Of a stretch of DNA of 64,000 nucleotides, positions 44,560 through 48,612 are shown in pieces (the first letter of the stretch is position 1; each line of letters starts with the position of its first letter). Position numbers and translations under genes: made by a program. Source of the DNA: Chloroflexota bacterium (GTDB lineage: Bacteria > Chloroflexota > Limnocylindria > P2-11E); NCBI GenBank assembly GCA_016194865.1, contig JACQAT010000015.1, positions 1 through 64,000 of the forward strand. The letters are read 5' to 3'. The notes below the pieces were generated by a model. The model worked only from the letters and a program-made list of their open reading frames with translations, did no database searches and was not told the origin of the DNA.

Positions 44560-45367
44560 CGTGATCACCATCGGCCTCGATCCGAACATCCACCTCGGGC
44601 CGTTGACGCTCGCGTGGCACGGCATCTTCACCGCCGTGGGCATCTTCTTCGGCGTGTGGCTGCCGGTGCGCCTGCTGCACGATCGCGTGCCGGAGGACCG
44701 CATCTATCACGTGGCGACGTGGGGCGTGGTCGCCGGGATCATCGGCGCGCGCCTCTTCCACGTGATCGATCGCTGGGACTTCTACGCGACGCATCCCGAG
44801 CTCATCCCCGCGATCTGGACCGGCGGCATCGCCGTGTGGGGCTCCGTGTTCGGTGGTCTGCTCGGCGGCTTCATCGCGGCCAGGCGGGTCGGATTCCCGA
44901 TCGGCGGGGGCGCCGACGCCGCGGCGCCGGGCATCGCACTCGGCTTCGCCATCGGACGGATCGGCGACATCATCAATGGCGAGCATCACTCGATCGCCTG
45001 CAGCGGGCTGCCATGGTGCGTCGGCTACTCGTTCCCCGCGGAGGATGGCGGCCTCGGCCAGATCGGCCCCGTGCATCCCGCGGTCGCGTACGAGCTCATC
45101 TACGACGCCGCGCTCGTGGGCCTATCGCTGTTGCTGCGCCGCTTCTTCGCCGGCCGTGTCCCGGAGGGCCGGATCTTCTGGATCTGGACGATCCTCTACG
45201 GATTCGGGCGGTTCCTCATCTCGTTCCTGCGCATCGACGATCCCGCGCCCCTCCTCAACCTGAGGCAGGACCAGATCATCGGCCTCATCGCGATGATCGC
45301 CGGCGTCGTGATGCTCGCGTACATTTCATCGCGCTCGCGCGCGACACGCGTGCGGCTGCCCGCGTAG
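44549..45367 (+). CDS. lgt: Prolipoprotein diacylglyceryl transferase
   Basis: Transfers a diacylglyceryl group from phosphatidylglycerol to the lipobox cysteine of lipoprotein precursors. It has seven membrane segments in 272 residues. The family motif GGIAVWGSVFGGLLGGFIAA and the GRIGDIINGEHHS stretch (H near the active site), IGPVHPAVAYELIYD and SFLRIDDPAP are all there. It starts with ATG 44549, overlapping secA by 11 bp. A second lgt copy follows immediately. Confidence 0.93.
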
Positions 45368-45382
45368 TCGGCCACGCCGGCT

Positions 45383-46173
45383 GTGATCGACATCCCGTTC
45401 GACCCGAACCTGAGCATCGGCGGGATGCGGCTCGCATGGCATTCGATCTTCTCGTTCCTCGCGCTGCTCGTCGGCAGTCGGGTCAGCTTCCGTCTCGCGC
45501 GATGGCTCGTCCGCGACGACCGGATCTATCTCTTTGCCCTGGCGGTGATCGCCGGCGGCCTCGCGAGCGCGCGGCTCGCGCACGTCGCGGACAACTGGGC
45601 CCAGTACGCCGGGCGGCCACTCGAGATCGCGGCGTTCTGGAACGGTGGCATCGCGGTCACCGGCGCGCCCATCGGCTCCGCGCTCGCGGGGCTGGCCGCC
45701 GCCCGCGCGCTGCGGCTGCCGGTCGGCTTCATGTTCGACATCGCGACACTGGGGATCGTCGTCGGCGAGGCGATCGGCCGGATCGGCGACATCATCAACG
45801 GCGAGCATCACGCGGTCGCCTGCTCCGGCCTTCCCTGGTGCGTGCGCTACACCCATCCCGCCACGCTGGGGCAGCCCGATCCGGTCCATCCCGTCGTCGT
45901 CTACGACGCGCTCATCGACGTGGCGCTGTTCGTCGTGCTGCTGCGCGTCTGGTATCGCGTCCGGGGCGCCCGCCGGAGGCGCGCATCTTCTGGCTGTACC
46001 TCTGCCTGTACGGCGCGTTCCGCTTCCTGACCTCGTTCCTGCGCGCCGACCCGGTCGTGCTGGCGGGCCTGCAGGAGGCGCAGCTCCTCGGTCTCGCGTA
46101 CGTCGTCATCGGCGCGCCGGTGCTGTGGTGGTTGTGGCGGCAGGACGCCCGGCGTCCTACTACACTGTCGTAG
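45383..46173 (+). pseudogene. Second prolipoprotein diacylglyceryl transferase, frameshifted
   Basis: A tandem paralog of the upstream lgt. It keeps the key motifs: GMRLAWHSIFSFLALLVGSR, NGGIAVTGAPIGSALAGLAA, GEAIGRIGDIINGEHHAVACSGLPWC, and VHPVVVYDALIDVALF. The frame breaks at about 45962 in a GGGG run; one further G would restore VRGRPPEARIFWLYLCLYGA and FRFLTSFLRADPVVLAGLQE to a stop at 46173. So it is either an assembly or read error in a homopolymer, or a frameshifted pseudogene. Duplicated lgt genes are common in high-GC Gram-positives. Confidence 0.75.
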
Positions 46174-47115: not shown

Positions 47116-47121
47116 TATATT
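47116..47121 (+). promoter_or_regulatory. -10 box before the tandem RNA element
   Basis: TATATT, 20 bp upstream of the first repeat unit at 47136 and after GGG. Together with the following leader of about 180 bases it marks a transcript carrying the tandem element and the Cys-rich gene. Confidence 0.45.
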
Positions 47122-47135
47122 TCGTACGAAAACCG

Positions 47136-47220
47136 CTACAGCTCTGGCTGAGAGCCCAGGACCGAAAGGTCCGAGCTCTACAGCTCTGGCTGAGAGCGCA
47201 GGGCCGAGGGGCCCGAGCAA
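47136..47220 (+). promoter_or_regulatory. Tandem 42-nt structured RNA element in the leader of the Cys-rich gene
   Basis: Two copies of a 42-nt unit start at 47136 and 47178. The first 20 bases are identical. Each unit contains hairpin 1 (GCTCT, loop GGCTG, AGAGC) and hairpin 2 (GGACC-GAAA-GGTCC in the first copy, GGGCC-GAGG-GGCCC in the second). The stem of hairpin 2 has an A-T to G-C exchange on both strands, a compensatory change that supports real RNA structure. Then follow GAGCT or GAGCA and a third hairpin GCCGCG/CGCGGC (47256-47274). Likely a tandem sensing leader; the ligand is unknown. The GGCTGAGA within it recalls TPP riboswitches, but the rest does not fit. Confidence 0.6.
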
Positions 47221-47306
47221 TACAAGAACATCCCATGGGGAGCGCCTGTGTGGTCGCCGCGAGCCTTACGCGGCTGCCGAGTGGGCTAGAGAGGAACACC
47301 CTTCCA

Positions 47307-47507
47307 ATGAAGGAATGGATCGTCTGCGAGGACAACTGCCTGAAGTGCAGCTATGGCGCCACCCTCGATTGCGACGGTGACTGCCCGCGCTGCCCGCGGA
47401 ACACCTACTGCCCCTGTGTCACGTTCGTGAGCTTCGCCGCGGGCAAGCTCTCCCCGGTCGTCGCTCCGGTCACCACCTCGTTCGAGCGCCCGCGCAGCAA
47501 GCGCTAA
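47307..47507 (+). CDS. Eight-cysteine small protein, likely metal- or Fe-S-binding
   Basis: A 66-residue protein from ATG 47307 with a GAGAGGAAC ribosome site upstream. The cysteines form C8-x3-C12-x2-C15, then C22-x3-C26-x2-C29, then C35-x-C37 in the first 40 residues: MKEWIVCEDNCLKCSYGATL and DCDGDCPRCPRNTYCPC. The repeated CxxxCxxC could hold an iron-sulfur cluster or zinc. The tail (FVSFAAGKLSPVVAPVTTSF) is unstructured. Function unknown; the tandem RNA leader upstream suggests its expression responds to a small ligand or metal. Confidence 0.6.
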   Translation: MKEWIVCEDNCLKCSYGATLDCDGDCPRCPRNTYCPCVTFVSFAAGKLSPVVAPVTTSFERPRSKR

Positions 47508-47516
47508 CGCGGCCTT

Positions 47517-48612
47517 GTGACCGACCTCGCCGCTCTCGCGGCCGTGCGCGAGCGCATCGACCTGATGACGGTGTTCCTTTGACCTGCCATCTCTCTCTCA
47601 AGAGGTCGCGCGTCTAGAAGACGACGCATCGCGACCCGACCTCTGGAATGACCGATCGCGCGCCCAGGCGGTGCTCAAGCGCCTCAACCTGGTGCAGACG
47701 CGCCTCCGCCGCTGGCAGGAATTCCAAACGCGCGCCAACGACCTGAGCGAGCTGGCGCCGCTGACCGACAACGATCCGGCGATGAGCGCCGAGTTCGACA
47801 GCGAGCTGAGCAAGCTCGCGGAAGAGGTGCGCGTCGCCGCGCTCGAGGCGCAGCTCTCCGGCCCGTACGACGAGCGGTCCGCGGTGCTCGCGATCTCGGC
47901 CGGCGTCGGTGGCACCGATGCCGCGGATTGGGCCCAGATGCTCCTGCGCATGTATCTGCGCTGGGCCGAGCGCCATGGATTCAAGGCGGAGGTGCTCGAG
48001 TCGACACCCGGCGAGGAGGCCGGACTCAAGAGCGTGACCGTCTCGATCGAGGGTGACTATGCCTATGGCTACCTCCGGACAGAGCGCGGCACGCACCGGC
48101 TGGTGCGGATCTCGCCGTTCGACTTCCAGCGACGACGCCAGACCTCCTTCGCGCTCGTCGACCCGACCCCGCAGGTCGAGACCGAGACCGAGGTCGACAT
48201 CAAGCCCGACGAGCTGCGCATCGACACGTACCGCGCGACCGGCGCGGGCGGTCAGAACGTCAACAAGACCGAGACCGCCGTGCGGATCACCCACCTGCCG
48301 ACCGGTCTCGTCGCGTCCTCACAGAACGAGCGTTCGCAGCTCCAGAACCGGGATATCGCCATGCGCATCCTCCGCGCCCGGCTGCTCGAGCTGAAGATCC
48401 GCGAGCAGGAGGCCGAGCAGGCCAAGGAGCGGGGGATCATGCGCGCGGCCGATTGGGGCAGCCAGATCCGCTCGTATGTGCTGCATCCCTACACGATGGT
48501 CAAAGATCACCACACCCCTCATGGACGACATGCGTCGCGAAGCGGGCAAGCGGGCGGCGGACATGCTCGGCGACGGTCGGGCGAAGGCACGCCACGCGAC
48601 GGGCGGTCATGA
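47517..48612 (+). CDS. prfB: Peptide chain release factor 2, programmed +1 frameshift, abnormal 3' end
   Basis: RF2 reads UGA and UAA. GTG 47517 starts MTDLAALAAVRERIDLMTVF; CTT TGA C (47577-47583) is the classical RF2 autoregulatory shift site, after which the +1 frame continues LPSLSQEVARLEDDASRPDL and on. The SPF tripeptide (RISPFDFQ) and the GGQ loop (RATGAGGQNVNK) are present. The C-terminus is wrong: after SYVLHPYTMVKDHHT the frame runs on into an arginine/glycine-rich tail ending at 48612, overlapping the YtxH gene, while the conserved end (roughly TGxExxNxxAVLDGDLDxF) is missing. A deletion in the DNA or assembly is likely. Confidence 0.85.
47577..47583 (+). other. RF2 programmed +1 frameshift site
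   Basis: CTT TGA C at codons 21-22 of prfB, the conserved slippery site where slow UGA decoding lets the ribosome slip forward one base. It lets RF2 levels control their own synthesis. The Shine-Dalgarno-like stimulator of the Escherichia coli site is not conspicuous here. Confidence 0.85.

Follow-up and report, generated by a model that had tools for sequence, protein, structure and literature searches.

A REP-like palindromic element, very probably mobile-element-like DNA, in tandem within the leader of an eight-cysteine gene of a Chloroflexota bacterium

The window considered here is the whole 64,000-nucleotide stretch analysed, taken from contig JACQAT010000015.1 of a Chloroflexota genome that is 66% complete. 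According to sequence comparison in the window, positions 47136-47177 and 47178-47219 hold two direct repeats of 42 nt that follow each other without a gap (n=2). They are preceded by a promoter-like TATATT (47116-47121) and followed by a ribosome site, AGAGAGGA, at about 47288-47295, and a Cys-rich ORF (47307-47507), with prfB downstream. The TATATT box, the ribosome site and the ORF are all present as described in the original prediction. The features discussed below are as follows.

47116..47132, plus strand: native promoter, consisting of a conserved −10 region and a TTTCGTACGAAA(A) palindrome; present in relatives without the repeat
47136..47182, minus strand: unit 1, read on the minus strand as TGTAG-AGCTCGGACCTTTCGGTCCTGGGCTCTCAGCCAGAGC-TGTAG; direct repeat and covariance-model match of 43.4 bits
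47178..47224, minus strand: unit 2, read on the minus strand as TGTAT-TGCTCGGGCCCCTCGGCCCTGCGCTCTCAGCCAGAGC-TGTAG; direct repeat and covariance-model match of 44.4 bits
47159..47172, unstranded: hairpin A of unit 1, GGACC gaaa GGTCC; based on the fold and on covariation over 34 copies
47201..47214, unstranded: hairpin A of unit 2, GGGCC gagg GGCCC; compensatory with respect to unit 1, with covariation over 34 copies
47141..47224, unstranded: 84 bp inserted in comparison with the orthologous leaders in relatives; based on aligned leaders of about 25 family genomes
47307..47507, plus strand: gene of a 66-aa eight-cysteine protein, conserved across the class; it hosts the insertion and lies outside the element

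The eight-cysteine gene is present in 87 of the 101 genomes searched. Seven relatives belonging to the same family and order have products with 83-94% identity to it, all eight cysteines being invariant, and two remoter class members keep the cysteine-bearing part at 47-58% identity. The cysteines follow the pattern C-x3-C-x2-C ... C-x3-C-x2-C ... C-x-C, and the protein has no Pfam or NCBIfam family match. The gene is genuine and highly conserved, and the repeat is no part of it. In relatives, the leader of the gene consists of the −10 region, a CGTACGAAAA block, GTGGGGAG and, in most of them, a CTAGAGAGGA ribosome site, with the repeats absent. The consensus fold of this native leader over 13 relatives is essentially structureless (−0.85 kcal/mol).

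Several other features of the window deserve mention. The TTTCGTACGAAA palindrome (47119-47132) directly follows the −10 box and is the sole match of its kind in the window; most relatives keep its CGTACG(A/G)AAA part, as would be the case for an operator or an initially transcribed motif. At the start of prfB, CTTTGAC (47577-47583) looks like the classical +1 frameshift site of release factor 2 and is visible in relatives as well. A 126-nt repeat with 77% identity (44914-45039 and 45736-45861) lies within two neighbouring ORFs, which seem to encode prolipoprotein diacylglyceryl transferases that are paralogues of each other. As for the Twister-P5 candidate at 47509-47540 on the minus strand, it reaches 19.8 bits against a threshold of 37.6 and was taken as chance.

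Comparison of the two units bears out what was originally claimed about their sequence. They agree at 36 of 42 positions (86%), and bases 1-20 are identical. Among the six differences is a compensatory A-T to G-C change in a 5-bp stem, altered on both sides: GGACC/GGTCC in unit 1 (47159-47163 / 47168-47172) corresponds to GGGCC/GGCCC in unit 2 (47201-47205 / 47210-47214). Given six randomly placed substitutions, the hairpin A stem would be kept with at least one double change at P ~0.02, a value that is weak taken alone because the stem was chosen post hoc; the compensatory change is firm because of the 34-copy alignment described below.

The repeat pair was originally regarded as a tandem riboswitch-like leader. 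Such an RNA, or another cis-regulatory leader RNA controlling the eight-cysteine gene, would agree with the location of the units between promoter and ribosome site, with the stable fold of the pair (z −5.0 against shuffled sequence) and with the compensatory pair between units; two small structured leader units are also what the tandem glycine and guanidine-II riboswitches have. In the minimum-energy fold, however, unit 1 pairs with unit 2 and two independent domains are not formed, and an Rfam scan of the window returned no match at gathering score. A third hairpin proposed after the units is not supported: the region 3' of the repeats folds no better than shuffled sequence (z −0.41), and no consensus structure is found in 13 relatives.

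The comparison with relatives also speaks against this reading. In about 25 of them, the gene and its promoter are conserved but the units are absent from the orthologous leader. The window repeats appear as ~84 extra bases between CGCTACA and the next leader sequence, flanked by CTACA on the left (47136-47140) and ATACA on the right (47220-47224), and among the genomes examined this insertion is found only in the window genome. Three more places in the same genome carry the unit, namely the topA leader (C16:7545), the region after lysW (C5:3031) and the region after a response-regulator gene (C17:159655). In relatives, the topA leader has a terminator-like hairpin and then directly the ribosome site, while in the window genome ~41 bp flanked by TGTAG are added (copy at C16:7534-7579). 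Relative to the downstream gene, the topA-leader copy is opposite in orientation to the window copies. Overall, the units differ from tandem riboswitches in being lineage-specific insertions that occur in both orientations at unrelated genes, mostly after stop codons; structure conserved in leaders of the same or functionally related genes, which riboswitch membership calls for, was not found. A riboswitch or similar leader RNA is therefore considered very unlikely.

The distribution of the unit was assessed with several searches. At the DNA level, 60 relatives yielded one further match, in the window genome, and the rest were at chance level; a match at locus L004 from this search falls in apparent coding sequence. 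The first covariance model (R1), built from three units, found remote members at weak scores only, and for this reason a curated model (R2) was built from 16 units (alignment A3). Searching the class with R2 and accepting full-length or almost full-length copies that score at least 26.9 bits gave 34 copies in 13 genomes, all from one taxonomic family. Strong copies number 1-6 per genome, as counted in incomplete assemblies with strict filters, and direct-tandem copies also occur at three other loci (L157, L165 and L166). Class-search matches of ~21-28 bits outside the family were judged to be chance (partial, or one repeated locus).

Beyond the class, 400 genomes sampled across the phylum contained no R2 match above threshold outside the family. 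Exact patterns run against 84,980 genomes gave 0 matches and 1 match, the latter in an apparent planctomycete coding sequence. Viral contigs gave 0 matches, and phages and plasmids none. Weak copies may be missed in the large-genome scans, since these used stricter filters. The covariance-model search suggested in the original prediction thus does return covarying homologs (34 copies in one family), but without the expected tie to Cys-rich genes. It also bears on a tandem duplication that is local and nothing more, its hairpin arising by chance, the outcome named at the outset as fatal to a selected structure. Such a duplication would leave neighbouring copies that agree fully in their first half; the window genome and 12 others, however, contain further copies whose stems covary, which makes it extremely improbable.

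Read on the minus strand, the element has the layout GTAG, T, S, CTC, 5-bp stem, 4-base loop, stem, TGNGS, TCTGCT, second hairpin, AGTAR. Hairpin A comprises two outer G-C pairs, a TC/TGN internal loop, the 5-bp compensatorily varying stem and the 4-base loop; it is followed by the variable hairpin B, and the unit ends in (G/C)AGTAR or GTAG. In the 16 curated copies, TA at positions 2-3 of the tag is invariant and G at position 4 nearly so. Tags in the 34 copies are mostly GTAG or ATAG, with a few GTAA, GTGG, GCAG and GTAT, the last being the form to which the 5' tag of unit 2 has degenerated.

Standard pairs fill 96.6% of the pair cells when the 34 copies are aligned, and 52 cells are changed on both sides, compared with 17 in shuffles. 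Covariation scores 0.536 in this alignment, versus 0.136 in shuffles and <0.1 in slid controls; this alignment was fitted to the structure, and the curated gapless set yields the same covariation result. One of the two outer pairs changes from C-G to G-C in 8 copies. The stem is thus truly kept, either by selection or by the copying process, and covariation is silent on whether the folded form is DNA or RNA. With regard to the compensatory change between the window units, its interpretation as a maintained stem is supported, and its interpretation as a leader RNA tied to the Cys-rich gene is not.

In 16 of the 32 non-window copies, the TAG or TAA of the element is the exact stop codon of the same-strand upstream gene. 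Among the non-coding GTAG sites of these loci, gene stops account for 12 of 82 (p 1e-4, with stops counted by a home-made gene caller). One of the 32 copies lies inside a called gene. The upstream genes include lysW, arginyl-tRNA synthetase (argS), glutamate synthase, a DUF3048 protein, a luciferase-like monooxygenase, a solute-binding protein and a response regulator, and have no functional theme.

At the lysW site, three of 25 genomes carry the element exactly between the stop TAG and lysX, the next gene downstream, whose name comes from Pfam; the C-terminus of lysW is intact in these (EDWGE, TAG), and the element follows directly. In the remaining genomes the sequence continues past the stop without the element, a few having an unrelated hairpin. 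Such a different G/C-rich hairpin (for instance, GGGGGGTCCGCCCCCC) is seen at the junction in L181, L194 and L199, so the junction may be a hotspot or favour hairpins. Two genera, g1 and g4, both have the lysW element (L180, L183 and L188) at this one site, and its hairpin B differs completely in sequence between them with pairing kept. Most g4 sister genomes are without it, which requires either long retention or repeated loss.

These observations can also be read as a dispersed family of structured 3'-UTR RNAs under selection, acting for example in mRNA stability, termination or next-gene coupling, with the window copy as a stray. Strong covariation within the family, the exact post-stop placement in excess over other non-coding GTAG sites, and the persistence of the lysW element in two genera, where hairpin B has been replaced entirely yet still pairs, are consistent with it. 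Presence is patchy between sister genomes, however, and tandem arrays, leader insertions and the antisense orientation in the window misfit a single RNA role. Moreover, single-strand DNA folding for transposition would keep stems too. Taken together, we regard selection on a 3'-UTR RNA as unlikely.

Among described kinds, the GTAG-tagged REP element is the closest. REP elements of this type comprise 24 families, including GTAG-23 in T. roseum, and are known in Chloroflexi; they carry a GTAG tag, form sub-families with compensatory stems and lie just downstream of genes, where their terminal TAG often supplies the stop codon, and dimers and clusters occur (Di Nocera et al. 2013, PMC3733652). 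The GTAG-23 consensus is given in a figure only, and the element is likened to GTAG REPs by description: both are short imperfect palindromes that bear an unpaired GTAG at one end, show compensatory variation in the stem, form dimers and clusters, and lie outside genes, directly after them, with TAG as stop. In contrast to REPs, which usually exceed 100 copies, the element has 1-6 per (incomplete) genome; its TC/TGN internal loop is conserved, and TAR ends its second hairpin. The Y1 transposase (PF01797) was absent from the window genome and from all 28 family genomes, with 5 control genomes positive, and no RAYT was found in the family genomes. Because high copy number and the RAYT transposase are missing, the element is called REP-like and is not filed as a confirmed REP.

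Non-autonomous elements of the IS200/IS605 type are mini elements with subterminal hairpins that adjoin a fixed short target. Similarly, the element has two subterminal hairpins and a near-invariant short motif at its 5' junction, with no terminal inverted repeats seen and no clear target duplication. Unlike them, it has no Y1 (HUH) transposase in the family genomes, and the full element measures about 41-84 bp.

The window units are thus probably head-to-tail copies of a small dispersed REP-type palindromic element. Against this stand the low copy number, the missing Y1 transposase, the GTAT tag of unit 2 and the lysW element shared by g1 and g4 yet absent from most g4 sisters. In the proposed mechanism, the element would plausibly insert next to a TAG-containing target. 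As it ends in TAG again, the target would be regenerated and tandem arrays would arise, and since TAG in compact GC-rich genomes is mostly stop or intergenic, and tolerated there, surviving copies would be found at stop codons and in leaders. Insertion and regeneration of this kind would yield the tandems, the stop-codon placement and the TGTAG flanks of the window and topA leaders. Two units would then have entered the 5' leader of the eight-cysteine gene in the window lineage only. We infer mobility from presence and absence between species, and it may proceed by single-strand (HUH-type) chemistry. There is also a small chance that the REP-like family spreads to stop codons without RAYT/Y1, through an unrecognised enzyme or recombination capture, and that its hairpins are kept as RNA at gene 3' ends.

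Judged from sequence, the units are very probably mobile-element-like DNA, similar to bacterial REP sequences, and not a tandem riboswitch, and they are here called a new REP-like repeat family. A compensatory base pair in tandem leader units can accordingly stem from inserted palindromic DNA, with no riboswitch necessary. The finding also extends REP-like elements by a covarying family of low copy number that sits next to stop codons, in an uncultured bacterial family whose genomes did not yield the usual transposase, and how such elements move without RAYT becomes a testable question.
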